This document shows positions 26,079 to 39,464 of a stretch of 64,000 nucleotides of DNA, piece after piece. Each line of letters starts with the position of its first letter. The first letter of the stretch is position 1. The position numbers and the translations under genes are program-made. Origin of the DNA: an uncultured Roseovarius sp. (GTDB taxonomy: Bacteria > Pseudomonadota > Alphaproteobacteria > Rhodobacterales > Rhodobacteraceae); assembly GCF_913057115.1 (NCBI RefSeq), contig NZ_CAJXNN010000012.1:1-64000 (forward strand), in the 5' to 3' direction. The notes beneath the pieces are model-generated. The model was not told the origin of the DNA. It did not search any database and saw only the letters and a program-made list of their open reading frames with translations.

Positions 26079-27122
26079 TCAGGTCAGTTCTGCCTCGGTA
26101 TCGACACCTTGATCGGGCGCTAAGATGTCGTTGGCAACCGCAGGACTTGCAAACCCATCATCCTTGGTCACTACCATTTTGATGTCCTGACTTTGCCCCA
26201 GTTTGTCAGATTGACCCTCTGCCGCGTCGGCCTCATTTGGTAGCGGCCCGTGACGACCCGAGACCAGACGCGCAGCCCGAAATCCATTGACTTGCCCCAG
26301 AACGACTTGGGCCACGACATGCCCACCCGTAGCCGTCAATTGCGTGTCTTTCAACGCCGACGGTGAAATTGGAAACCGCATACCGACTTGCAGCTTGCAA
26401 GCATGCTTCAAAGGCATTTCCAGCCGAGCAAGCACAGCATTCAGCGTCACCGGGGCATTCCTTATAACCTCGCCCAGATCGGCGGCATCCCGCCTGTGGG
26501 ATTTCGCCGCCTTTTCACTTTGATCCGTCGCCAGTTCCGGAACAATGGGCAGTATGATCGTCAGCACACCATTCTTTGCCCCCTCCGCCAAGTCTACTGA
26601 CAAGCGAAGAACATCGTACTCGGGCGCGTCGAGCGAAAGGCTGAGTGCGCGGGCATCTTCAACACGATCGCCAAAACGAAAACACCCTGTGAGCTCCGAT
26701 CGCGCCTTATCTGCCAACTGCCGTTGAACCGCTTCGAATAGCCGGTCAATGAATGGCGCACATATGGCTGCATCCGTTGGCGTGACCGGTCTAGGTTCAG
26801 CATGTCCCTCGCGAACCTTTCCGGTTGTCTGAACTTCGATCATCGCGGCAAGAAATTGGGCGTCCAGCAACAGCCCTCCGCGCAGGTGTTCAGGACCATC
26901 CAACACCACCAGCAATCCGTCATCCTCGACATTCGCCTGCAAGGTAGTCTGAGTGATCCGGTTTTGTTCAACCGTGTTCACCACGAGTGGCAAGTCGTAG
27001 TATTCGTCGGCGACACGTGCCAAGCCCAGACGCAATGCCTTGGACGTCGACATGCCGCGCGCGTCAAATTCTTCACGTGCGACCTGCGCCTTGCGATGTA
27101 TGACCGATTGATTGCCTTGCAT
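26079..27122 (-). CDS. Orphan FliM/FliN-family protein with SpoA domain
   Basis: 347 residues. The C-terminal part (VTLNAVLARLEMPLKHACKL, then VGMRFPI and the closing strands up to VNGFRAARLVSG, about 225-295) is a SpoA/FliMN-C domain. The N-terminal part resembles the FliM middle domain (LRLGLARVADEYYDLPLVV). A tail of about 50 acidic residues follows. In motors FliM/FliN form the C-ring switch, but no other flagellar gene is present here. It lies 85 bases downstream of the sensor kinase on the same strand. It could be a true switch protein encoded away from the flagellar cluster, or a divergent paralogue with another role. Confidence 0.75.
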   Translation of the reverse strand: MQGNQSVIHRKAQVAREEFDARGMSTSKALRLGLARVADEYYDLPLVVNTVEQNRITQTTLQANVEDDGLLVVLDGPEHLRGGLLLDAQFLAAMIEVQTTGKVREGHAEPRPVTPTDAAICAPFIDRLFEAVQRQLADKARSELTGCFRFGDRVEDARALSLSLDAPEYDVLRLSVDLAEGAKNGVLTIILPIVPELATDQSEKAAKSHRRDAADLGEVIRNAPVTLNAVLARLEMPLKHACKLQVGMRFPISPSALKDTQLTATGGHVVAQVVLGQVNGFRAARLVSGRHGPLPNEADAAEGQSDKLGQSQDIKMVVTKDDGFASPAVANDILAPDQGVDTEAELT

Positions 27123-27206
27123 ACTGACGTGTCTGCCACTGCCCTTGCGCCCTACAATCCCGAGGATAAGGGCAGTTTGGTTACCAAGACATTACTTCAC
27201 CCCGGA

Positions 27207-29897
27207 TTATTCCGCCGCCTTCGCCGCCTCAACGTCAATCGGGATGGTCACTCTGAACGCTGCGCCATTCTGTCCGGGAAGATAGGTGATCGTCCCCGAG
27301 AGTCTGGCCATGACTTCGCGGCAAATGGCAAGCCCAAGCCCGGCCCCCCCGGCCTTTGTCTCACCGATCCTGGAAAACTTCTCGAATATCAGGGCCTGCT
27401 TGTCGGTTGGAATGCCCGAGCCGTTGTCGATGAAATCCACAATCAGGTTGCCGCCGCTTTGCTTGCTACGTATCCGCAGAACCGGATCACTTGCATCGCA
27501 ATACTTTCGCGCGTTCGAAATTACGTTGATGAAAACCTGAGCCAGCCTGTCCAAATCGGATCTGAGTTCGAGTTGCTCCTTGGCGCGTATTCGATCAACC
27601 TTGAAACCGGGTTCGTTCACGCCTGCGGCCGATATCGCTCGATCAAGCACCTCTGAAAGATTGCCGGTTTGCCAGTTCAAGACAACCTGGGCGTTTTCCA
27701 GAACGCTCAGGTCAAGAAGATCGTCCAAAAGGCGTGTCAATCTCACGGCCTCGTCATGAATGATTGAGGAATACTTGTTCTGTTCGTCCTCGGTCAGGCC
27801 TTCCGTATCCCGCATGATCTCCGAAAACGCCCGAATGGAGGTCATTGGCGTGCGAAGTTCATGGCTGATCTGGCTGAGAAACGCATCTTTTTGTACGGAC
27901 AACTGAGTGAGTTTTTCGTTCGCCTCGCGCAGTTGCCTTGCCGTTCTCGCTTGCTCTTCCGTTTTCGCTTCGAGCCGACTGGAGTATTCCATGATCTGTG
28001 CGGTTTCATCGGCGACGGCCATAAGGTCTTCAACCGAGACGGTCGCGCCGCCAACGATTTGACTGATCATCGCATGTGCAGTAGCCGCCCCTACCGAGCC
28101 TGACAATTCGCGCTCAAGCTGTTGCAGGAAATCCGGAGTTGGCTCAGGCAGTAAGCCGGCAATTCCCTGATGCCGAGCAGCCCCCGCAAACAAGGCCTGT
28201 GCCTCGCTCGCCCCCATGATTCGCTGCGACATAATGAGCAGATCCTCGCTCTGCGCCAATCCACCCGACCAAGACCCGGCGGTGCCCGAGTGTTGAAAAA
28301 CATTCACGAACTGTGCCCCTTGCAACCGCTCTATGGGGCGCGGGAAGCTCAATAACGAGACGACAAAGAATACGAATGTATTGAGCAGCAAAGACCACAT
28401 CACCGCATGCACTATAGGGTCTAGGCCTTCGGCCCCGAACAAGGCTTGCGGACGCAGCCACGACAGCCCGAATAGACCATTCTCGATGACCTGTTGAGGC
28501 AGGAAGACCGTGTCGCCGAAACTGGGCAGGAACAAGGAGTACATCCAGACCATGGCACCGACGACCAAGCCAGCAATCGCTCCGACTCGGTTCGCCCCGC
28601 GCCAAAAGAGCCCGCCCATGAGGGACGGTAGAAACTGAGCGACACCGACAAACGAAATCAACCCAATCGCCGCCAAGGCTGCACCGCCGCCGGACACGCG
28701 GAAATACAAGTAGCCCAAGAATACGATCCCGGCGATCGAAAGGCGCCGCGCCAAGAGTGCCACGCTACGAACATCACCGGAAACCATGGCGCTTTCACCC
28801 GACATCCAAAGCCAGATGGGCATGACAATGTGGTTGGACACCATTGTAGAAAGGGCAATGGCTGCCACGATCACCATTGACGTCGCCGAGCTGAACCCGC
28901 CCAAAAACGACAGGATGGCTAGGCCATCACGGCCTTCCTGCAACGGCAAGGTCAACACAAAAAGGTCGGGGTTCGCGTCTGCCGGCAATCTTTCCAAGCC
29001 GACGGCAGCGATAGGTACGACGAACAGGCTCATCGCCATCAGGTAGGCCGGGAAAGCCCATGACGCTGTGCGCAGGTGGCCTTCGTCCTCGTTTTCGACG
29101 ACCATCACTTGAAACATCCGTGGAAGGCAGATGAACGCGGCGGCAGACAACATCGTAAGACCGATCCAACGGCTATTGGTCACTTCAAACTGAGAAATTG
29201 GCGATGCGTCGATCTGAGCCAAAGTCTCTGCAACGCCCCCAGACAATCCCCAAACCACGAAGACCCCCACGGCAAGAAGCGCGAAGAGTTTCACGACAGC
29301 CTCCAACGCGATAGCCATGACCACACCATGGTGCCGTTCATTCGCGTCAAGGTTCCGTGTTCCGAAAAGGATCGTGAAAACCGCAAGGCCCGAGGCGACC
29401 CAGAAAGCGGTGGATTGCTGGCTGGAGGGGCCTCCGCTGATCATGTCAGTTTCCGCGAAAATACTGAAAGACAGCGTCACAGACTGCAGTTGCAGCGCGA
29501 TGTAAGGCGTTGTGCCAATAACAGCCAAGACCGTAACGAAGACAGCCAGACTGTTGGACTTTCCGTACCGAGAGGAAATCAAATCGGCAATGGAGGTAAT
29601 GCGCTGACTGCGCCCAATCCGTACCATCTTGCGAAGCGTCCACCACCAGCCGATCATAACAAGGGTGGGGCCAAGATAGATCGTGACGTATTCAAGTCCC
29701 GAACGTGCGGCAAAGCCGACCGCACCGTAGAAAGTCCATGCCGTGCAATAGATCGACAAGGACAAAGTGTAGACAATCGGCGACCGAAGCCAAGCACCGC
29801 GACCATGCAAGGCGGCACGATCCGCCGCGAATGCGACGGCAAACAGAAAGATCACGTAAATCAAACATACAAGAACGAGAACGTTCAGCGATGCCAT
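27207..29897 (-). CDS. Hybrid SLC5-type membrane sensor histidine kinase (CrbS/CbrA-like)
   Basis: 896 residues. Residues 1 to about 520 form a sodium:solute symporter (SLC5) membrane domain of some 12-13 helices. Next come a linker, a coiled coil and a histidine kinase: H-box SQISHELRTPMTSIRAF with His679, the N-box around VISNARKYC, DNGSGIP and the GGAGLGLAIC G-box. Kinases of this layout include CbrA and CrbS; CrbS controls acetyl-CoA synthetase in Vibrio and Pseudomonas. Here acs is also close (7.5 kb away), which supports an acetate role. The ATG follows the preceding stop directly (TGAATG), so translation is coupled to the small membrane gene. Confidence 0.92.
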   Translation of the reverse strand: MASLNVLVLVCLIYVIFLFAVAFAADRAALHGRGAWLRSPIVYTLSLSIYCTAWTFYGAVGFAARSGLEYVTIYLGPTLVMIGWWWTLRKMVRIGRSQRITSIADLISSRYGKSNSLAVFVTVLAVIGTTPYIALQLQSVTLSFSIFAETDMISGGPSSQQSTAFWVASGLAVFTILFGTRNLDANERHHGVVMAIALEAVVKLFALLAVGVFVVWGLSGGVAETLAQIDASPISQFEVTNSRWIGLTMLSAAAFICLPRMFQVMVVENEDEGHLRTASWAFPAYLMAMSLFVVPIAAVGLERLPADANPDLFVLTLPLQEGRDGLAILSFLGGFSSATSMVIVAAIALSTMVSNHIVMPIWLWMSGESAMVSGDVRSVALLARRLSIAGIVFLGYLYFRVSGGGAALAAIGLISFVGVAQFLPSLMGGLFWRGANRVGAIAGLVVGAMVWMYSLFLPSFGDTVFLPQQVIENGLFGLSWLRPQALFGAEGLDPIVHAVMWSLLLNTFVFFVVSLLSFPRPIERLQGAQFVNVFQHSGTAGSWSGGLAQSEDLLIMSQRIMGASEAQALFAGAARHQGIAGLLPEPTPDFLQQLERELSGSVGAATAHAMISQIVGGATVSVEDLMAVADETAQIMEYSSRLEAKTEEQARTARQLREANEKLTQLSVQKDAFLSQISHELRTPMTSIRAFSEIMRDTEGLTEDEQNKYSSIIHDEAVRLTRLLDDLLDLSVLENAQVVLNWQTGNLSEVLDRAISAAGVNEPGFKVDRIRAKEQLELRSDLDRLAQVFINVISNARKYCDASDPVLRIRSKQSGGNLIVDFIDNGSGIPTDKQALIFEKFSRIGETKAGGAGLGLAICREVMARLSGTITYLPGQNGAAFRVTIPIDVEAAKAAE

Positions 29898-30176
29898 TCA
29901 ACGCCCCCCGTTTTCGGCATCGCTCTGTGATCCGTTATCATCGTCGTGCAGGTGCCGCGAGATGATCGCCGAGGTCACGGACAGAGCAATCCAGACCAAG
30001 AAGAGATAAAACATCGTCACCGTTGTCTTCGGCGGACTACTGACAGCCCATAGCAAGGGCATGCAAAACAACAGCGCGCCCAATATTGGCAGCATGCGCG
30101 CGCCATCCGCCATACGACGCCGGCGATAGGTTTTTCGCTCTACGAAGACCGGCATGCGTCTTTGCTTCGGGCTCAT
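29898..30176 (-). CDS. Small membrane protein between kinase and response regulator
   Basis: 92 residues: a basic N-terminus (MSPKQRRMPVFVERKTYRRR), two hydrophobic helices (MLPILGALLFCMPLLWAV and FYLFLVWIALSVTSAIIS) and a polar His/Asp tail. Its ATG overlaps the response-regulator stop (ATGA) and its stop abuts the kinase start. I know similar two-helix partners encoded beside SLC5-type kinases and symporters; a partner or accessory subunit of the kinase's transporter domain is a reasonable inference. Confidence 0.78.
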   Translation of the reverse strand: MSPKQRRMPVFVERKTYRRRRMADGARMLPILGALLFCMPLLWAVSSPPKTTVTMFYLFLVWIALSVTSAIISRHLHDDDNGSQSDAENGGR

Positions 30177-30541
30177 GTTGCGACCATGGATCGCACGGCT
30201 TCCAGCACATCGGCATTCGAGAAGGGCTTTGTCATGAATCGGTTGGCGCCCACGCGTGCGGCCATTTCCCTGTCCTTGTCCTGCCCACGTGCAGTCAACA
30301 TCAATACCGGTGTGTCCGACAGCGCGCCATCGGCACGAATATCTTTGAGTATGTCGAAACCGCTGCGCCCCGGAAGCATCACATCCAGAATGATCAGATC
30401 CGCGGCGCGGTCGCGAACGGCATCCATCGCGTCATGACCATTGGCATGTGTTTTGACGTCCCACCCGTCACGAGACAAAATGAAGCTGATTGCCTCAATG
30501 ATGTTCGGCTCATCTTCAATAAGAAGTACTTTCTTATTCAT
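30173..30541 (-). CDS. Single-domain response regulator (receiver only)
   Basis: 122 residues from the ATG at 30541 (GGGGAGG upstream). It is a complete CheY-like receiver: acidic pair in LLIEDEPN, phosphoacceptor Asp53 in LIILDVMLPGRSG, Thr in MLTARGQ and Lys in FMTKPF. There is no output domain. It is overlapped by the small membrane gene and followed by the kinase, so the kinase is its likely donor. How the signal reaches DNA is not shown by this protein; the adjacent XRE regulator is a candidate partner. Confidence 0.9.
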   Translation of the reverse strand: MNKKVLLIEDEPNIIEAISFILSRDGWDVKTHANGHDAMDAVRDRAADLIILDVMLPGRSGFDILKDIRADGALSDTPVLMLTARGQDKDREMAARVGANRFMTKPFSNADVLEAVRSMVAT

Positions 30542-30612
30542 GCCATCGGCCTCCCCTTCCGATGTCACCACCTGTTGCGGCAGTTCATTTATCGTGAAAC
30601 TTGGACGACAAG

Positions 30613-31923
30613 TCAAAAAGCCTGCGATATGATGGATGGCTCACGCCGAACCGCACAGTCTTCGCGCGGGCAAATCCGACATGTGATACCGACATCAACC
30701 GACGGGATAGCATCACCATCTCGCTCCGGCAGCAAAAGCATATAGCCTTGCGTCAATGCGGGTTGATCAAAGGTCGGCGGCGTCACTTGCTCGGCTGCGG
30801 CCATTGCCAAAACGCTGACATTCACACGCCCGGCTTGCCGCAGGTGAACTCTGATGGGCGCACCCGGCTGGCGCATGACATGAAACACTGGCCACAAGGC
30901 ACAAGCGCCTGCCACACTGGGTGTTCCAAATCCATCAATGGATTTGCGAAACAACAAGCTTCCCGAGTTGTCGCAAACAATCAGACCAATGGGGCCTACC
31001 TCATCCTCGGGAAGCGTCGCAAGCCGACGAAAGAGCAACGGCAAACCGATGCCGAGACGGCGCGCCAAGGCATCAGGCTCAAGCCCCTCGGCGGCCAGAG
31101 CCGTCCGCAGGCTCAGCAATGAGACACGCCCCACATCAGAGGCATATTGTTTCAAGACCAAGTGCAGCATTCGACGCGAGGAAGCACTTTCCAGTTTCTC
31201 GGACAAGTCATCCTCGACCCTCGCAACCGCCGCGACGGGATCAGCCGCTTCCTCGATCGCCGCGAAGGAATAACCCGCCTCATCTAAAACCGCGTGCAAT
31301 TCATCCTGTGGCGACAGGAATTCAGCATCGCCGTCCGGCCCCGCTTCAAGATAGCGCACAAGCGCTTGCGCACCTTCGGCCAAACGCCGGCTGTCTTCGC
31401 CGATATTTCTGTGAAACCGATGCTGCCACTCGGGTTCGATTTCGTGCGTGTCGGCAAGAATCGACGCTGTTGACCTGATTGCCGTCACTGTCGAAATCAC
31501 TTCGTGAAGCGATGCCGCAAGATGGGGATCGTGCGCCATTCGATCTGTTAGGCTTTGCACGCTTCGCTCGACGCTTTCGACTCTTTGGTGCAGGCTTGCC
31601 ACAAGTTGCGCCCACCCCGGAAAACGGCCTGCGAATTCCTCTGTACGAGCCAACTCCGCCTGATGCTCTTTCTGGGCTCCAGCCGCTTCGTGCAGAGCAG
31701 AGATGAGCGTCGCCTCTGCTCCTTCGGAAAGCAGCGCCGGCTCCACCTCGAGCGCGTCCGCCAGCTTCAATAGAGTTCGGCCGCCGATTCTCCGACGATT
31801 GTGTTCGATAAGGTTCAGATAAGACGGTGAGATTTCCGCTGCTTTTGCCAACTCCGTCTGTCGAATGCCCATTGACATGCGCTTTTCTCTGATGCGCGTG
31901 CCGATCATGGTGCTGTCGATCAT
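30613..31923 (-). CDS. XRE-family regulator with HisKA-like and short-chain fatty-acyl regulator domains
   Basis: 436 residues from the ATG at 31923 (AGGA 8 bases upstream; a TTG two codons earlier is possible). Residues 6-65 are an XRE helix-turn-helix (RIREKRMSMGIRQTELAKAA, then SYLNLIEHNRRR). Residues 136-190 look like a kinase dimerisation hairpin (LHEVISTVTAIRSTASIL with His140). The C-terminal half resembles the DUF2083 short-chain-fatty-acyl regulators (RamB, PrpR, ScfR) and ends with Cys415, Cys418 and Cys423 (CRICPREDC). In mycobacterial PrpR this domain binds acyl-CoA and an iron-sulfur cluster. I infer a control protein of the divergent transporter-acs operon. Confidence 0.85.
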   Translation of the reverse strand: MIDSTMIGTRIREKRMSMGIRQTELAKAAEISPSYLNLIEHNRRRIGGRTLLKLADALEVEPALLSEGAEATLISALHEAAGAQKEHQAELARTEEFAGRFPGWAQLVASLHQRVESVERSVQSLTDRMAHDPHLAASLHEVISTVTAIRSTASILADTHEIEPEWQHRFHRNIGEDSRRLAEGAQALVRYLEAGPDGDAEFLSPQDELHAVLDEAGYSFAAIEEAADPVAAVARVEDDLSEKLESASSRRMLHLVLKQYASDVGRVSLLSLRTALAAEGLEPDALARRLGIGLPLLFRRLATLPEDEVGPIGLIVCDNSGSLLFRKSIDGFGTPSVAGACALWPVFHVMRQPGAPIRVHLRQAGRVNVSVLAMAAAEQVTPPTFDQPALTQGYMLLLPERDGDAIPSVDVGITCRICPREDCAVRREPSIISQAF

Positions 31924-31970
31924 TTCCAAAATCCTAACGATTCACAGGGTTTCCGCTACGGAATGCAGAG

Positions 31971-32014
31971 TTTTTTACAAACCCCAACAGCAAACTGTTT
32001 ATATTTTTACAAAA
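31971..32014. promoter_or_regulatory. Paired TTTTTACAAA boxes in the divergent intergenic region
   Basis: Two copies of TTTTTACAAA lie at 31972-31981 and 32004-32013, 32 bases apart (about three helical turns). They sit between the regulator start and the binding-protein promoter. TTTACAAA is one base from TTTGCAAA, the core reported for RamB/PrpR-type regulators. They are candidate operators for the XRE regulator, by inference. Confidence 0.5.
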
Positions 32015-32038
32015 TTATCGTGCCAATGGAAGCAGTTG

Positions 32039-32068
32039 TTGCGAAATTTTCTTACCCCCCACCATAAT
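32039..32068 (+). promoter_or_regulatory. Candidate sigma70 promoter of the transporter-acs operon
   Basis: TTGCGA (32039-32044) and CATAAT (32063-32068) are separated by 18 bases, 78 bases before the binding-protein ATG. The paired boxes would then be centred near -98 and -66, suitable for activation. The call is from pattern only. Confidence 0.4.
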
Positions 32069-32145
32069 TCCCTTGCACACTTGTGCCGTTGGGGAGGCGC
32101 AGAGGAGGCCCTTCCCAATCGAATTTTCTCAACGGGAGGATATCA

Positions 32146-33492
32146 ATGTCCAATTCGAACCTGACTCGTCGTGGCTTGCTCAAGACCAGCGCTGTTGCTG
32201 GCGCCGGCGTTGCGCTGCCGACGATCTTTACAGCTTCATCCGCTGCGGCTTACACCAATGAACCCACGGGCAGCACCGTCACCCTCGGCTTCAACGTGCC
32301 GCAAACCGGCCCCTACGCTGATGAGGGCGCAGACGAGCTTCGCGCCTATGAGCTGGCGGTTGAGCACCTGAACGGTGGTGGCGACGGTGGCATGATGAAC
32401 ACCTTCAGTTCCAAGGCGCTGCAAGGTAACGGCATCCTTGGCAAGAAGGTCGAATACGTCACCGGCGACACGCAGACCAAGTCGGACGCGGCCCGCGCAT
32501 CGGCCAAGTCGATGATCGAAAAGGACGGCGCCATCATGATCACCGGCGGTTCGTCCTCCGGTGTGGCCGTTGCCGTTCAGGCCCTCTGCCAAGAGGCAGG
32601 TGTCATCTTCATGGCAGGCTTGACGCACTCGAACGACACCACGGGTAAAGACAAGCGGGCCAACGGCTTCCGCCATTTCTTTAACTCGTACATGTCGGGC
32701 GCAGCTCTGGCACCGGTGCTCAAGGCAAACTATGGCTCGGATCGTAAAGCCTATCACCTGACCGCCGACTACAACTGGGGCTACACAACCGAGGAGGCGA
32801 TCAAGTCCTCGACCGAGGCCATGGGTTGGGAAACCGTCGCCGCAGTGAAGACACCGCTGACGCAAACCGACTTCTCGTCCTACATCGCCCCGGTCCTTCA
32901 ATCGGGTGCCGACACGCTGGTTCTGAACCACTACGGCGGCAACATGGTGAACTCGCTGACCAACGCAGTTCAGTTCGGCCTGCGCGACAAGCAGGTGAAC
33001 GGCAAAGACTTCCAGATCATCGTTCCGCTCTACTCGCGCCTGATGGCGCGTGGTGCTGGTGCAAACGTTAAGGGCATCTTCGGCTCCACCAACTGGCACT
33101 GGTCGCTGACCGACGAAGGCTCCAAGGCATTCGTCAAATCCTTCGGCGAAAAATACGGCTTCCCGCCGAGCCAGGCGGCGCACACCTGCTATGTGCAGAC
33201 CTTGCTTTATGCGGATGCCGTGGAACGTGCCGGCAGCTTCGCACCTTGCGCCGTGGTCGAGGCCCTCGAGGGCTACGAATTCGACGGTCTGGGCAACGGC
33301 AAGACGCTCTACCGCGCCGAAGATCACCAGTGCTTTAAGGACGTTCTCGTCGTGAAGGGTAAAGAAAACCCGACCAGCGAATTCGACCTTCTGGAAATCG
33401 TGGAAGTGACCCCGGCAGAGCAGGTCACCTACGCTCCGGATCACCCCCAATTCGCGGGTGGCGCACTGGGTTCGTGCAACAACGGCGCATAA
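32146..33492 (+). CDS. Tat-exported periplasmic substrate-binding protein (branched-chain amino acid/urea type)
   Basis: 448 residues from the ATG at 32146, with GGGAGGA upstream. A twin-arginine signal (TRRGLLKTSAVAGAGVALP) ends near SSAAA. The mature part is a type I periplasmic-binding fold of the LivJ/UrtA family: LGFNVPQTGPYADEGADELR opening, ITGGSSSGVAVAVQ and HLTADYNWGYTTEE. It hands its ligand to the permeases encoded next. Five cysteines are spread through the protein, unusual for this class. The ligand cannot be read from the sequence; position beside acs and an acetate-type kinase suggests a short-chain carboxylate or amide rather than an amino acid. Confidence 0.9.
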   Translation: MSNSNLTRRGLLKTSAVAGAGVALPTIFTASSAAAYTNEPTGSTVTLGFNVPQTGPYADEGADELRAYELAVEHLNGGGDGGMMNTFSSKALQGNGILGKKVEYVTGDTQTKSDAARASAKSMIEKDGAIMITGGSSSGVAVAVQALCQEAGVIFMAGLTHSNDTTGKDKRANGFRHFFNSYMSGAALAPVLKANYGSDRKAYHLTADYNWGYTTEEAIKSSTEAMGWETVAAVKTPLTQTDFSSYIAPVLQSGADTLVLNHYGGNMVNSLTNAVQFGLRDKQVNGKDFQIIVPLYSRLMARGAGANVKGIFGSTNWHWSLTDEGSKAFVKSFGEKYGFPPSQAAHTCYVQTLLYADAVERAGSFAPCAVVEALEGYEFDGLGNGKTLYRAEDHQCFKDVLVVKGKENPTSEFDLLEIVEVTPAEQVTYAPDHPQFAGGALGSCNNGA

Positions 33493-33502
33493 ATTCGCCT
33501 CC

Positions 33503-33531
33503 CCGGTCGCGCACAGCCAGTGCGCGACCGG
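33503..33531 (+). other. Perfect 12-bp hairpin between binding protein and permease genes
   Basis: CCGGTCGCGCAC (33503-33514) pairs perfectly with 33520-33531 around a 5-base loop. No T-run follows. Such hairpins commonly protect the 3' end of binding-protein mRNA and limit read-through, giving more binding protein than permease. Confidence 0.7.
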
Positions 33532-33593
33532 ACACGCCTGATCCCCGCAGGGTGATCACGCCTCAATCACACTGAATCGCGAAGGGTGGACTG

Positions 33594-34625
33594 ATGGACG
33601 CAATCATCCTCCAAATTCTAAACGGGCTCGACAAGGGCTCTGCCTACGCTCTCATTGCGCTAGGACTTACTCTCATCTTCGGCACGCTCGGGGTTGTGAA
33701 CTTTGCCCACGGGGCGCTTTTCATGATCGGCGCCTTTTGCGCTGTTACCCTGTCTCGTATCATCACCATCAGCCATGAAGTCGTTGATGAATCGCGGACC
33801 GATTTCCTTGGCAACCCTTTGAAAGTGGACGTGCCTTATGTGCACGACTGGTTTGGTAAGGAAACCGGGGACGTCATCATAGATTGGGCCGTTCCGCTCG
33901 CTATCCTCTTTGCGATTCCGATCATGATCCTGATCGGTGTGGCCATGGAACGCGGCTTGATCAAGCATTTCTACAAGCGCCCACATGCCGACCAGATCCT
34001 GGTAACATTCGGCCTTGCCATCGTGTTGCAGGAGATCATCAAGTATTTCTATGGTGCCAACCCGATCCCGACCCCCGCGCCCGAGGCCTTCACAGGCTCG
34101 TTCGACTTTGGCGCGATGCTGGGAATGGAGGCCAACCAGATCATCTATCCATATTGGCGTCTGGTTTACTTTGCCTTCGCAGCCGTGATCATCGGTGCCG
34201 TTTTCGCATTCCTTCAATTCACCACCTTCGGAATGGTTGTTCGGGCAGGCATGGCCGACCGTGAAACAGTGGGCCTTCTGGGTATCAATATCGACAAGCG
34301 GTTCACGATCATGTTCGGTATCGCCGCTGCCGTGGCGGGCCTTGCCGGGGTGATGTATGCGCCGATCAATTCACCAAACTACCACATGGGCATGGACTTC
34401 CTTGTTCTGAGCTTCGTGGTTGTCGTCGTGGGTGGCATGGGCTCTTTGCCGGGTGCGGTGCTTGCCGGGTTCCTTCTGGGTATCCTCGAAAGCTTCGCCT
34501 CGATGAAAGAGATCATCGACCTCATTCCGGGCATCAACCAGATCATCATCTATCTGGTCGCCATTATTATTCTGCTGACACGTCCACGTGGCCTTATGGG
34601 TCGCAAAGGCGTGATGGAGGACTGA
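33594..34625 (+). CDS. LIV-type ABC transporter permease (LivH-like)
   Basis: 343 residues with about eight to nine membrane helices. The opening (LNGLDKGSAYALIALGLTLIFGTLGVVNFAHGALFM) and a later VRAGMADRETVGLLGINIDK loop are the LivH/UrtB signatures; the latter contacts the ATPase. VVVVGGMGSLPGAVLAG is also typical. With the second permease it forms the membrane channel of the importer. An insertion of about 35 residues after the second helix (DESRTDFLGNPLKVDVPYVH) is longer than in standard LivH. It is followed by the second permease after 3 bases. Confidence 0.93.
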   Translation: MDAIILQILNGLDKGSAYALIALGLTLIFGTLGVVNFAHGALFMIGAFCAVTLSRIITISHEVVDESRTDFLGNPLKVDVPYVHDWFGKETGDVIIDWAVPLAILFAIPIMILIGVAMERGLIKHFYKRPHADQILVTFGLAIVLQEIIKYFYGANPIPTPAPEAFTGSFDFGAMLGMEANQIIYPYWRLVYFAFAAVIIGAVFAFLQFTTFGMVVRAGMADRETVGLLGINIDKRFTIMFGIAAAVAGLAGVMYAPINSPNYHMGMDFLVLSFVVVVVGGMGSLPGAVLAGFLLGILESFASMKEIIDLIPGINQIIIYLVAIIILLTRPRGLMGRKGVMED

Positions 34626-34628
34626 TCC

Positions 34629-35831
34629 ATGCTAGGCCTCAACAAAAAAGACACCTCGCTTTTGATCCTCGTGGCGGCGCTTGCATTGTTCGCACCGTTT
34701 ATCCTGAACCCCTTCCCTGCCGGGTCGGGCATGGCACAATTCAACGCCGGCTACCCCGACCTTATGCAGCGGTTTGTGATCTTTGGGATTTTCGCCATCG
34801 GCTTCAACATCCTGTTTGGCCTGACCGGCTATCTCAGCTTTGGTCACGCGGCCTTTCTCGGGGTGGGATCTTACGCCGCCGTATGGATGTTCAAACTGCT
34901 GAGCATGAATGTGGTTCCGGCGATCATCCTGTCGGTGATCACTGCCGGCTTGTTCGCCTTGGTCATCGGTTATGTCTCGCTCCGCCGTTCAGGCATCTAC
35001 TTCTCGATCCTGACCTTGGCCTTCGCGCAGATGACCTATGCCCTGGCCTACTCGGTTTTGACGCCGATCACCGGCGGTGAAACCGGCCTTCAGCTGGCTC
35101 TTGATGACCCGCGCATTCTCGATGGAGCCGCTTCGAGCGACAATATCCCCGTCCCCGGCCTGTTCGGCATGGAGATGCGCGGCAGTTCGCAGCTTGAACT
35201 TGGCGACTGGGTCTTCACCTTCTCGACGGGTTATTACTTCAGCGCCATCATCATGCTGCTGTCCTTCTACCTTTCGATCCGCATCTTCCGGTCGCCTTTC
35301 GGCATGATGCTGCGGGCAATCAAATCGAACCAGCAGCGCCTCAACTACACGGGCCTGAATGCACGTCCCTATACTTTGGCGGCCTTCGTGATTTCGGGCA
35401 TGTACGCCGGTCTGGCCGGTGGCTTGATGGCCGCGATGGACCCCCTTGCCGGAGCGGAACGGATGTTCTGGACCGCCTCGGGTGAGGTTGTCCTGATGTC
35501 GATCCTTGGCGGTGTCGGCACCCTGATCGGTCCGGTTCTGGGGGCTGGCTTGATCAAGTACATGGAGAACATCCTGTCCAAGATCAATTCGGACATCCTG
35601 CATGGCTGGTTCGCCTTCATGCCCGATGGTCTCGAAGACATCATCGTCAGCATGATTTACCCCTTTATCGGCAAGGGCTGGCACCTGACACTGGGCTTGA
35701 TGTTCATGCTTGTCGTCATTTTCCTGCCCGGTGGTCTTGTCGAGGCTGGTCAACGGATCTCGCGCCTGTTTGGTCGCAAGAAATCCGAAGACAAGTCCGA
35801 CAAATCCACCAGCACTGAACCCGCAGAATAA
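34629..35831 (+). CDS. LIV-type ABC transporter permease (LivM-like)
   Basis: 400 residues, about ten membrane helices. [20 protein letters not shown] and [22 protein letters not shown] are LivM/UrtC signatures, and [20 protein letters not shown] is the coupling loop for the ATPase. Its C-terminus is a charged cytoplasmic tail ([17 protein letters not shown]). It pairs with the upstream LivH-like permease in the inner membrane and lies in the same operon, three bases after it. Confidence 0.93.
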
Positions 35832-35843
35832 GGAGGGCCAACG

Positions 35844-36599
35844 ATGGGCATTCTTGAAGTCAAGGACGTCAACAAACGCTTCGGTGGCCTTCAGGCCCTG
35901 GGCGACGTCAACCTCAGCGTGGCAGAGAACTCCTGCCACGCGATCATCGGCCCCAACGGGGCGGGCAAATCCACCCTGCTCAATTGCTTGGTGGGCAAGC
36001 TGATCCCTGACACGGGCAGTGTCATGTTCGACGGGCAAAGCGTTCTGGGGCGAAAGCCTTACGAGATCAACCAGATGGGTATCTCACGGGTGTTCCAGAC
36101 ACCGGAAATCTTCGGTGATCTGAGCGTTCTGGAAAACATGATGATCCCGATCTTCGCCAAACGCGATGGGGCCTTCCGGATGCATGCCGTGGAGGATACC
36201 GCCAACGAGAAAGAGATCGTCGAACAGGCGGAAAACATGCTGGAAAGCCTGAGCATGGGTGACAAGCGCCACATGCACTCGGCCTCGATGAGCCGCGGTG
36301 ACAAACGGCGCCTTGAGATTGGCATGTGTCTGGCACAAGAGCCGCGCCTTTTGCTTCTGGACGAACCCACCGCCGGTATGGCGCGGGCCGATACCAACAA
36401 CACGATCGACCTGCTCAAGCAAATCAAGGACGAGCGTGATATCACGATCGCCATCATTGAACACGATATGCATGTTGTGTTCAGTTTGGCGGAGCGGATC
36501 ACTGTTCTGGCCCAAGGCACACCTCTGGTCGAAGACACTCCAGACAAGATCAAAGGCCATCCGAAGGTCCGCGAAGCCTATCTTGGCGAAACGGCGTAA
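35844..36599 (+). CDS. LIV-type ABC transporter ATPase (LivG-like)
   Basis: 251 residues. Walker A GPNGAGKST, a signature segment reading SMSRGDKRRLEIG in place of the usual LSGGQ-like motif, and Walker B LLLLDEPTAGMARAD are visible, along with a switch His in IEHDMHVV. This LivG-type ATPase powers the importer. SMSRG is a noticeable departure from the LSYGE usual in LivG proteins; several ABC families tolerate such changes. It has an AAGGAGG box before the ATG. Confidence 0.92.
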   Translation: MGILEVKDVNKRFGGLQALGDVNLSVAENSCHAIIGPNGAGKSTLLNCLVGKLIPDTGSVMFDGQSVLGRKPYEINQMGISRVFQTPEIFGDLSVLENMMIPIFAKRDGAFRMHAVEDTANEKEIVEQAENMLESLSMGDKRHMHSASMSRGDKRRLEIGMCLAQEPRLLLLDEPTAGMARADTNNTIDLLKQIKDERDITIAIIEHDMHVVFSLAERITVLAQGTPLVEDTPDKIKGHPKVREAYLGETA

Positions 36600-36614
36600 G
36601 AAGGAGATCACGAG

Positions 36615-37370
36615 ATGAACGTCAAACCCGACTTCTCCAAAGGCAAGAACTACGCCGAAACCGCCCCGGCCTTCCTGTCGGTCTGGGAAATGCAATCCTA
36701 TTATGGCGAAAGCTACATCGTTCAAGGCATCAGCTTTAACGTCCACGAAGGCGAAATCCTCGCACTTCTTGGCCGCAACGGTGCCGGGAAAACCACCACC
36801 CTGCGCTCGATTGCCCGTATGGATAGCCCGCAAGTGAACCATGGCGAGATTTGGCTGGACCACCAGCCGCTTCACAGCATGAAAAGCCATCAGGCAGCAG
36901 CGGCGGGAATTGGTCTTGTGCCCGAAGACCGCTGCATCATCCCCGGCTTGACCGTCGAGGAAAACCTGCAATTGGCCCAGATCGCGCCGCCGATTGGCTG
37001 GTCGCTCGACCGTCTTTACGAACTGTTCCCCCGTCTCGGCGAACGCCGCAAGCAAGAGGGCGTAACTCTATCAGGTGGTGAGCAGCAGATGCTGTCCATT
37101 GCCCGCGCTCTGGCGCGTGATATCAAGGTCTTGTTGCTGGACGAACCTTATGAGGGTCTGGCTCCGGTGATCGTGGACGAGATCGAGAAGACTCTCCGCA
37201 TCATCAAGGAACAAGGCATCACGACCGTTCTCGTGGAGCAAAACGCCGTGCGCGCGCTCGAACTGGCTGATCGGGCTGTGATCCTTGATACCGGGTCCAT
37301 CGTATTCGACGGCTCGGCTTCTGAAGTTCTCGAAAACGAGGAACTGCGCGCAGAATACCTCGCTATCTAA
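36615..37370 (+). CDS. LIV-type ABC transporter ATPase (LivF-like)
   Basis: 251 residues. Walker A GRNGAGKTT, signature TLSGGEQQMLSIARAL and Walker B LLLDEPYEGLAPVIVDE are all standard for LivF/UrtE. About 25 residues are added at the N-terminus compared with the shortest LivF proteins (MNVKPDFSKGKNYAETAPAF). It completes a five-gene importer with the upstream genes, starting 15 bases after the LivG-like gene with a GAAGGAG box. Confidence 0.93.
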   Translation: MNVKPDFSKGKNYAETAPAFLSVWEMQSYYGESYIVQGISFNVHEGEILALLGRNGAGKTTTLRSIARMDSPQVNHGEIWLDHQPLHSMKSHQAAAAGIGLVPEDRCIIPGLTVEENLQLAQIAPPIGWSLDRLYELFPRLGERRKQEGVTLSGGEQQMLSIARALARDIKVLLLDEPYEGLAPVIVDEIEKTLRIIKEQGITTVLVEQNAVRALELADRAVILDTGSIVFDGSASEVLENEELRAEYLAI

Positions 37371-37380
37371 CGCGCGATCC

Positions 37381-37418
37381 CTGCCCGAAGGTCGGATTGC
37401 ACCCCCTCGGGCAGGCCT
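37381..37418 (+). terminator. Weak hairpin between transporter and acs
   Basis: CTGCCCGA (37381-37388) pairs with TCGGGCAG (37407-37414) around an 18-base loop, followed by GCCTTT. It could act as a partial terminator or mRNA 3' stabiliser, making acs expression partly separate from the transporter. Weak U-tract. Confidence 0.4.
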
Positions 37419-37457
37419 TTAACCCTTGACCGAATTTTCAAAAACCAAAGGTCTGAC

Positions 37458-39407
37458 ATGTCTGACAAAACTCACCCGCCCTCCTCCGACATGGTTGCGA
37501 ACGCCCACGTGGACGCCGCCAAATACGAGGAAATGTACGCCGCCTCCATCAATGACCCTGAAGGCTTCTGGAGCGAGCACGGCAAGCGTGTCGACTGGAT
37601 AAAGCCCTTTACCAAGGTTAAAAACGTCAACTATGACTTCGGCAATGTCTCGATCAAATGGTTTGAAGACGGTAGCCTGAACGTCGCGGCAAACTGTATC
37701 GACCGCCACCTTGCCACGCGTGGTGATCAGACCGCTATCATCTGGGAACCCGATGAGCCGACAGACGAAGCGCAGCATATCACTTATAATGAGCTGCATG
37801 AAAACGTCTCCAAAATGGCCAATGTTTTCAAGAACCTCGGGATCGGCAAAGGCGACCGCGTGGTGATCTACCTGCCGATGATCCCCGAAGCGGCCTATGC
37901 CATGCTGGCCTGTGCCCGCATCGGCGCCATCCACTCCATCGTTTTCGCAGGCTTCTCGCCCGACGCCCTTGGCGCACGGATCAACGGCTGTGACGCCAAG
38001 CTGGTGATTACCGCCGACACCGCCCCCCGTGGCGGTCGCCGCACCAAGCTGAAGGATAACGTCAACCAAGCCCTGCTGCATGACACGGACGACGTGAAAT
38101 GCCTTGTCGTCAAGCGCACCGGCGATCAGATCGCTTGGCGTTCGGAAGGGGACTATTGGTTGCATGAAGAACTGGAGAAGGTCGACGCGGATTGCCCGCC
38201 GGAGGAGATGAACGCCGAAGACCCGCTATTCATTCTCTACACCTCAGGCTCGACCGGGCAACCCAAGGGCGTTGTACACTGCAATGGCGGCTACCTTGTC
38301 TGGGCCTCGATGACCCATGAGATCACCTTCGATTACCACGAAGGCGATATCTTCTGGTGTACCGCTGACGTGGGTTGGGTCACCGGGCACAGTTATATCG
38401 TCTATGGCCCGCTTGCGAATGGTGCGACAACGCTGATGTTCGAAGGTGTGCCGACCTACCCTGATGCTGGCCGGTTCTGGGCTGTCTGCGAAAAGCACAA
38501 GGTCAACCAGTTCTACACCGCCCCCACCGCGATCCGCGCTCTTATGGGGCAAGGCACTGAATTCGTTGAAAAATACGATCTCAGCGATCTTAAAGTTCTG
38601 GGCACTGTGGGTGAGCCGATCAACCCCGAAGCCTGGAACTGGTACAACGATGTTGTCGGCAAAGGGAACTGCCCGATCGTCGATACATGGTGGCAGACCG
38701 AGACCGGCGGGCACATGATGACCCCCCTGCCCGGCGCCCATGCCACCAAGCCCGGTTCGGCGATGAAGCCCTTCTTTGGCGTGCAGCCCGTGGTGCTTGA
38801 GCCGACCTCGGGTGAGGAAATCCACGAGTACCCGACCGAAGGCGTGCTGTGCATGAAAGACAGCTGGCCGGGCCAGATGCGCACCGTTTGGGGCGATCAT
38901 GAGCGGTTCGAGAAGACCTATTTCTCGGACTACAAGGGCTACTACTTCGCCGGGGACGGCTGTCGTCGCGACGCGGATGGCGATTACTGGATCACCGGCC
39001 GTGTGGACGATGTGATCAACGTGTCGGGCCACCGCATGGGGACCGCCGAAGTGGAAAGCGCATTGGTCGCCCACTCGAAGGTCGCCGAGGCAGCCGTGGT
39101 TGGATATCCCCATGATATCAAGGGACAGGGCATCTATTGCTACGTTACCCTGATGTCCGGCGAGGAGCCCACCGAGGAGCTGCGCAAGGAGCTGCGCACA
39201 TGGGTGCGCACCGAGATTGGCCCGATTGCAGCCCCCGACCTCATTCAGTGGGCCCCGGGCCTGCCCAAGACCCGGTCTGGCAAGATCATGCGCCGTATCC
39301 TGCGCAAGATCGCCGAGAACGACTATGGCAGCCTTGGGGATACCTCGACACTGGCCGATCCCAGTGTTGTGGACGAGCTGATCGAAAATCGCATGAACCG
39401 CGATTGA
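37458..39407 (+). CDS. acs: Acetyl-CoA synthetase
   Basis: 649 residues, typical length. [19 protein letters not shown] is the AMP-binding loop, and [18 protein letters not shown] and [19 protein letters not shown] are present. The C-terminus has [15 protein letters not shown], whose Lys is the residue that is acetylated to switch Acs off. It makes acetyl-CoA from acetate, ATP and CoA in the cytoplasm. It is the last gene of the transporter operon or has its own transcript from the 87-base gap, and it ends at a strong terminator. Confidence 0.97.
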
Positions 39408-39430
39408 ACTTGCGCAGATAACCAAAGATT

Positions 39431-39464
39431 GCCCCCGCACGAGGCGTCGTGCGGGGGCTTTTTT
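39431..39464 (+). terminator. Strong rho-independent terminator after acs
   Basis: A GC-rich stem GCCCCCGCACGA (39431-39442) pairs with the following complement (TCGTGCGGGGGC, ending 39458) around a very short loop, and is followed at once by six T residues. It lies 24 bases after the acs stop. Confidence 0.92.

Follow-up and report, generated by a model that had tools for sequence, protein, structure and literature searches.

A divergent signalling, importer and acs locus

We analysed bases 1–64000 of contig 12 (NZ_CAJXNN010000012.1) of the 3.44-Mb genome of an uncultured Roseovarius sp. (GCF_913057115.1), a 64-kb stretch referred to here as the window, in which a block at 26079–39407 brings together a predicted signalling gene set on the minus strand and, divergent from it on the plus strand, an ATP-binding cassette (ABC) importer followed by acs. 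A first-pass annotation made from the sequence alone had named an XRE/short-chain-acyl regulator, a receiver, a membrane protein, a kinase, a LIV-type importer and acs in this block, and every one of these genes was recovered with an intact frame. The minus-strand genes encode an ScfR-type regulator (30613–31929; Pfam HTH_3 and ScfRs), a stand-alone receiver (30173–30616; Response_reg, 1.7e-27), a 92-amino-acid membrane protein with a single strong hydrophobic peak and no family over cut-off (29898–30176), and a sensor histidine kinase (27207–29897). Because adjoining frames of these four genes share 4 nucleotides (nt) or abut, they look translationally coupled. By Pfam, the plus-strand importer is complete, comprising a Tat-type LIV-family substrate-binding protein (32083–33492; Peripla_BP_6, 3.6e-70; TAT_signal, 2.3e-5), permease 1 of the LivH/UrtB type (33594–34625; BPD_transp_2, 6.5e-37), permease 2 of the LivM/UrtC type (34629–35831; BPD_transp_2, 1.4e-35), ATPase 1 of the LivG/UrtD type (35844–36599; ABC_tran, 5.7e-32; BCA_ABC_TP_C, 3.8e-8) and ATPase 2 in the LivF/UrtE position (36615–37370; ABC_tran, 4.8e-32). 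The acs gene (37458–39407) encodes an acetate–CoA ligase that scored 1011 bits on TIGR02188 (cut-off 725) versus 546 on the PrpE model.

The kinase carries HisKA and HATPase_c domains by Pfam, with His679 as its DHp histidine, and has 13 hydrophobic stretches, some of them overlapping. Its first-pass label, 'SLC5-type', is supported, not proven: PDB 10ed, a solved structure described as a 'histidine kinase', was matched by the kinase profile at E 7e-102, and SSF symporters gave a weak alignment (Prob 48, E 1.8e-4; controls 0.3 and 0.1), but the N-terminus gave no Pfam SSF match even at E 10. We did not count this miss against the SLC5 assignment, because the hybrid kinase of another importer locus (L066, below) also had no SSF match at an E limit of 1e-5. 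The receiver has no Pfam domain other than Response_reg and lacks an output domain, and its Asp78 (numbered from a TTG start) and Lys130 are invariant in 29 of 29 sequences.

A DHp-like insert in the ScfR-type regulator

The regulator, which the first-pass annotation had noted without its insert, is the new point of this analysis. It combines an XRE helix–turn–helix (HTH) with a PrpR-like domain and matches the ScfR C-terminal domain (PF09856) at 38.5 bits, over a cut-off of 24. A profile of its orthologues aligned with PrpR of M. tuberculosis at E 2.7e-96 in two blocks, profile positions 58–131 and 203–512; the intervening stretch, 132–202, has no counterpart in M. tuberculosis PrpR and corresponds to an insert of approximately 60 residues (residues ~132–192, 31354–31536 on the minus strand). 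When compared by hhalign, this insert matched the DHp region of the partner kinase (Prob 99.2, E 9.4e-20, 61 columns), with regulator His142 placed exactly on kinase His679, whereas controls reached 0.7% with reversed columns and at most 16% in 20 column shuffles. A hidden Markov model (HMM) of the regulator inserts recovered 141 partner-type kinase frames at 36.6–58.7 bits (median 47.6; some genomes counted twice), and seven other non-regulator frames scored at most 23.5 bits in a comparison set with few other kinases. The AlphaFold2 model of the regulator (46 sequences; mean pLDDT 88, pTM 0.61) contains long helices at 135–160 and 166–195; a Foldseek search with this model returned PrpR and HTH matches and, among the best 50 of 625, no separate kinase match for the insert, so the DHp assignment rests on sequence profiles and predicted helices. 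On these comparisons the insert is homologous to the DHp domain of the partner kinase, with His142 as candidate phospho-acceptor or docking residue, and it looks like a copy taken from that kinase, a hint that the signal reaches DNA by an unusual route. The other ScfR protein of the same genome, read by eye, has no insert, and among the open-access papers listed none describes, by title or abstract opening, a DHp-bearing ScfR.

His142 is kept in 68 of 75 regulator orthologues. The regulator cysteines C343, C417, C420 and C425 are invariant in 46 of 46 aligned orthologues and map, by profile alignment, to C363, C447, C450 and C455 of PrpR, so that all of the Fe–S ligand cysteines (C363 and the C447-X2-C450-X4-C455 motif) are retained. 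Two residues described as stacking on CoA in PrpR, Phe240 and His319 (excerpts of PMC6765138), are lost from the window regulator: the Phe240 region is deleted and His319 is replaced by Arg. Equivalents of both are present in 24 of the 46 orthologues. The DHp histidine occurs in 39, and the seven regulators that lack it all have the CoA-pocket histidine; conversely, the latter position is neither His nor Gln in 14 regulators, all of which have the DHp histidine. This complementarity, uncorrected for relatedness, is suggestive only.

In its XRE HTH, PrpR-like domain and four Fe–S ligand cysteines the protein resembles the ScfR family (PrpR of M. tuberculosis, PccR and RamB), members of which control short-chain acid metabolism, commonly from two near-identical boxes, with a TTTGCAAA-like site proposed for PrpR (PMC6765138 and PMC10370305, both in excerpt). 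Unlike PrpR, it has a DHp-like insert, is encoded with a kinase and a receiver and has lost the two CoA-stacking residues. An ScfR protein of P. denitrificans, Pden_1785, clustered with a two-component system and was set aside by the authors (PMC10370305, in excerpt); our guess is that it is a counterpart of the window regulator.

Conserved gene order, acs settings and a repeated box

The gene order, whose conservation the first-pass annotation had named as a point to check and whose restriction to one genome it would have taken as a refutation, is kept well beyond the genome of origin. Orthologues of the binding protein were sought in 60 genomes (own included; 36 same-genus and 24 other), in which full-length same-genus matches were 78–92% identical, and then in 385 genomes of the class, 49 of which, own included, had a match at E ≤ 1e-60. 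The window proteins were mapped on 90 loci; a fragment with stops (G112) and the second fragment of G325 were left out. In the 28 same-genus importer loci (L029–L056) the order kinase–receiver–regulator/importer–acs holds wherever the contig reaches, with acs missing in three, all at contig ends. Among 48 further loci, one of them a paralogous copy in the same-genus genome G011 and the rest from 47 genomes not in the same-genus set, the regulator stands beside the importer in 40 and a partner-type kinase is present in 34. A set of named loci (the best 80 of at least 574 confirmed) has the regulator in 75, one of them partial. The regulator–importer gene order is thus more than chance. The binding protein is 57–88% identical in 33 of 35 sequences aligned from outside the genus, and 34 and 37% identical in the other two. 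Besides the window genes, no neighbour cluster (open reading frames of at least 100 amino acids) recurs in more than 4 of the 48 further loci.

The 36 same-genus genomes, with the own genome counted, have 45 acs orthologues, of which 43 adjoin either the importer (27) or a symporter (16); of the remaining two, one lies directly beside the regulator (G018) and the other belongs to G025, where the importer contig is broken. The importer is present in 30 of these genomes and has acs next door in 27, the three misses again being contig ends. The symporter of the own genome is a Na+ symporter of the VC_2705 family (TIGR03648, 814 bits), and a DUF4212 small subunit lies beside the symporter in L141, the locus where this was looked at. 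The own genome itself has the importer–acs operon and a symporter without adjoining acs. With the ActP model TIGR02711 at 1e-50, no same-genus match was found (36 genomes, 22 of the same genus, own included); a reading in which no acetate symporter exists was dropped, since the own-genome symporter of VC_2705 type matches the same model at 3.9e-43. In L141, from an importer-less genome, kinase-like and receiver-like frames were seen by sequence a few genes past the acs–symporter genes (135–2574).

Six same-genus genomes lack the importer (G005, G018, G019, G023, G024 and G035), and all six keep the kinase, receiver, small protein and regulator genes. In G005, G019, G024 and G035 acs is gone from the locus (4.7–6.6 kb examined) and is found at the symporter. 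In G018, acs and the regulator are divergent neighbours without an intervening importer; in G023, the end of the last ATPase gene (53 residues) precedes the first part of acs, at which the contig breaks off (L109:13012–13409). This remnant, between the regulator gap and acs, is a trace of importer loss. Because G018 and G023 keep acs beside the regulator, the regulator–acs link outlives the importer.

The regulator–importer gap of the window contains two forward TTTACAA boxes on the plus strand, at 31974–31980 and 32006–32012, which lie 32 bp (about three helical turns) apart and are the sole occurrences of TTTACAA or TTGTAAA in the 64-kb window; from this sequence pattern we read them as a putative operator of the regulator. 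At least one forward box was present in 56 of 69 regulator–importer gaps (shuffles, mean 2.8) and at least two in 28 (shuffles, mean 0.04), the commonest spacing being 32 bp (18 of 31 successive pairs). Of 75 gaps taken from the named loci, partly from the same genomes again, 53 had at least one box and 29 at least two. A genome-wide search for TTTACAA-N24..26-TTTACAA in the 60 genomes gave 20 matches in the 36 same-genus genomes, against one for a backwards-pattern control (in G009): 17 lie in the regulator–importer gap, two precede the regulator in the importer-less genomes G019 and G024, and one lies ~200–240 bp upstream of the symporter-linked acs of G014. The 24 other genomes gave five matches versus five for the control. 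Within 300 bp upstream of symporter-linked acs copies, a forward box occurs in 13 of 16 (shuffles, mean 0.68, maximum 4), and a box on either strand in 14 of 16 (mean 1.3, maximum 5; maxima from 500 runs).

ErdR-like genes (at least 35% identity) were searched in 170 loci and stand beside the importer in one (L066) and beside acs without an importer in one (L114). In L066 the importer, with a binding protein 84% identical to that of the window, adjoins a hybrid kinase and an ErdR/CrbR-like response regulator, whose best NCBIfam match is ErdR at E 1.3e-68, with 231 of the 390 bits of the cut-off. L114 (G047) has a kinase and an ErdR-like frame adjoining acs, a CrbS/R-like layout within the same class.

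Other variants of the neighbourhood were seen. L057 is the paralogous G011 copy, a second, divergent kinase–receiver–regulator–importer set followed by an ATP-sulfurylase gene, not acs. L062 (G092) has the importer without the regulator, followed by genes for a GntR-type regulator and an amidase. L113 (G042) has an ScfR protein with the insert and its histidine near a partner-type kinase and a receiver, the importer being absent. Among the 90 loci, the 92-amino-acid membrane protein was matched only in same-genus loci and in L059, L060, L063 and L064. Directly 3′ of the kinase gene lies a gene for a FliM/FliN-like protein (26079–27122, minus strand; FliMN_C, E 1e-6; fliM_switch, E 1.5e-7, below cut-off), which recurs in most same-genus and related loci. 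As FliM-type proteins bind CheY-like receivers, this protein might be a second target of the receiver.

A sense–import–activate reading and its alternatives

We consider it slightly better supported than not that the locus is a sense–import–activate module for acetate or a close short-chain monocarboxylate, in which kinase and receiver act on the DHp-bearing regulator. The SLC5-like kinase would sense the compound as its signal and phosphorylate the stand-alone receiver, which in turn would act on the regulator through the insert. Since kinase, receiver and regulator form one unit and the receiver has no output domain, the insert would be its simplest target; as a member of the same DHp family as the kinase's own domain, it should keep a receiver-docking face. 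Either the phosphoryl group would pass to His142, a His–Asp–His relay ending inside a DNA-binding protein, or the receiver would dock on the insert. The regulator would bind the two TTTACAA boxes and control, with either sign, the importer–acs operon, its own gene and the second acs together with the adjoining Na+ symporter. The importer would bring the compound in, and Acs would convert it to the acyl-CoA, trapping the imported acid. The first-pass idea of an uptake and activation system for an acetate-like compound is right in outline and partly supported, by the acs linkage, the operator box, L066 and the importer-less genomes, with the ligand unproven; it had passed over the insert, the operator, the second acs–symporter operon and the FliM-like gene.

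A number of observations weigh against this module, or limit it. Outside the same-genus set, acs adjoins the importer in just 5 of the 48 further loci (L063, L080, L088, L089 and L091), and this adjacency is missing in most other families sampled; set against the 40 loci with the regulator and 34 with the kinase, this means that the signalling–importer core is wider than the acs link. Of the 80 named loci, 12 end at a contig edge before acs can be judged (L195, L204, L209, L212, L218, L234, L237 and others), and acs or its beginning is present in 37 of the 68 judgeable and absent from 31. In approximately nine more named loci the contig stops within the first part of acs, a pattern that assembly breaks at near-identical acs copies might explain. 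The importer and the symporter co-occur in 18 of 36 genomes and are thus not simple substitutes, and two of the six importer-less genomes (G018 and G023) keep adjacent acs, so importer and acs are not strictly lost as a unit. No box precedes the second acs of G001 and G010 or lies in the acs–regulator gap of G018; the box statistics come from related genomes, and the shuffles ignore relatedness. In the regulator, His142 is replaced by Phe, Gln or Tyr in 7 of 75 orthologues, so phosphotransfer would not be general; four of these seven sit in loci that have acs, receiver and kinase. The window insert also lacks the Pro of the kinase HELRTP box. Finally, an acetate-type ligand is deduced from gene context; the pocket was not readable from the model.

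For the signalling step, an alternative compatible with any ligand is that the insert serves as a dimerization or contact domain through which the regulator forms a pair with the kinase or binds the receiver, with no phosphotransfer. We regard this as a serious possibility, albeit one held at less than even confidence: the loss of His142 in the seven orthologues while nearby insert residues stay alike, the lack of a Pfam ATPase domain in the regulator and the tetramers formed by PrpR (PMC6765138, in excerpt) would all fit it, but retention of His142 in the other 68, its exact alignment on the kinase histidine and an intact receiver that has no output domain and is coupled to the regulator gene are harder to accommodate. 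The most specific form of the relay would be a DHp domain of the kinase's own family inserted in a PrpR/RamB-type ScfR regulator, so that the receiver phosphorylates a DNA-binding protein directly, this input having replaced the ancestral acyl-CoA pocket in Rhodobacteraceae and driving an ATP-powered, binding-protein-dependent acetate importer; as a whole we hold this only tentatively and consider it doubtful.

Turning to what is imported, the closest solved chains of the binding protein are 4maa, 3i09 and 3n0w, the printed titles of which name no ligand (one title is incomplete). The same fold binds urea (UrtA), acetamide (AmiC), aromatic acids and amino acids, so the first-pass view that a ligand of this size makes a binding-protein importer unexpected is not supported. 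Mean column identity of the binding protein is 62% (41 sequences), and this high conservation suggests one ligand class. Acetate is our best guess from context, because acs is linked to the importer, the symporter or the regulator and the importer and symporter settings share the box; other short-chain acids come next. An importer of wider range or for another short-chain acid (propionate, lactate, pyruvate, glycolate or others), with acs serving part of the range or being a co-regulated neighbour, is unlikely in our estimation. It would explain why the binding protein stays 57–88% identical where acs is mostly not adjacent outside the genus, and an ABC importer for lactic acid is recorded from Ruegeria pomeroyi (PMC9870897, in excerpt); within the genus, however, every importer that does not adjoin acs lies at a contig end, and the Acs model fits the ligase far better than the PrpE model does. 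It is quite improbable that the importer takes a precursor, such as acetamide or an N-acetyl compound, that yields acetate inside the cell for salvage by acs. The fold shared with UrtA and AmiC would permit this, and the amidase of L062 lies two genes downstream of the importer, but no hydrolase is conserved among the recurring neighbours, and a box common to the acs–symporter operon points to acetate itself.

Least probable of all, and in our view very improbable, is an ordinary branched-chain amino acid or urea importer that lies beside acs by chance. Pfam does place the importer in the LIV family, and its proteins give partial matches to UrtA–D and LivG/H/M/J; the four importer proteins scanned (ATPase 2 was left out) all fall below the curated cut-offs of the Urt/Liv equivalog models (UrtA, 65 of 493 bits; UrtB, 188 of 250; UrtD, 240 of 304), and the conserved regulator and acs links argue against chance. 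If LivJ Ser79 and Glu226 have the roles that we presume, Ser79 is kept as S159 in 41 of 41 binding proteins and Glu226 aligns with D309 by hhalign (N, D, K or Q in relatives) or with L316 by strand and proline; in the alignment no conserved acid replaces Glu226 at either position, a point that also speaks against amino acids and that we treat as weak.

The proposed module shares features with several known systems. With the SLC5/STAC kinases of CrbS/CrbR and CbrA/CbrB the window kinase may share a transporter-like N-terminus fused to the kinase part; in place of a NarL-type response regulator, the locus has an output-less receiver and a DHp-bearing ScfR. As in the Spo0F–Spo0B relay and with the alphaproteobacterial ChpT/PhyT phosphotransferases, a stand-alone receiver would meet a DHp-like domain, but in this locus the domain sits within the DNA-binding protein. 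CrbS/R governs acs and actP, which ties kinases of this type to acetate use (PMC5715377, in excerpt). The importer has the five-gene set and fold of LIV/urea-type importers (LivJ/K, UrtA, AmiC) and differs from them in scoring below the Urt/Liv cut-offs and in being tied to the ScfR–kinase set and, in part of its range, to acs. SPO1848–1850 and SPO1810 of R. pomeroyi may be counterparts of the importer and the symporter. SPO1848–1850, called branched-chain, and SPO1810, a symporter putatively for acetate, rose with Micromonas exometabolites (PMC9870897, in excerpt). Among the open-access papers listed we found no experimental description of an acetate ABC importer, the one mention being in a paper on a genome-scale model (PMC6915089).

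If the regulator ends a relay, stand-alone receivers of unknown output would gain a target class, and the DHp domain would count as one more means of connecting a sensor to DNA. Marine phytoplankton and bacteria commonly exchange acetate, with roseobacters among its leading consumers. If the importer carries acetate, these bacteria would be paying ATP to collect it where it is scarce, and a widespread gene set, of a kind that annotations usually call a 'branched-chain amino acid ABC transporter', would be misread in ocean transcriptomes.

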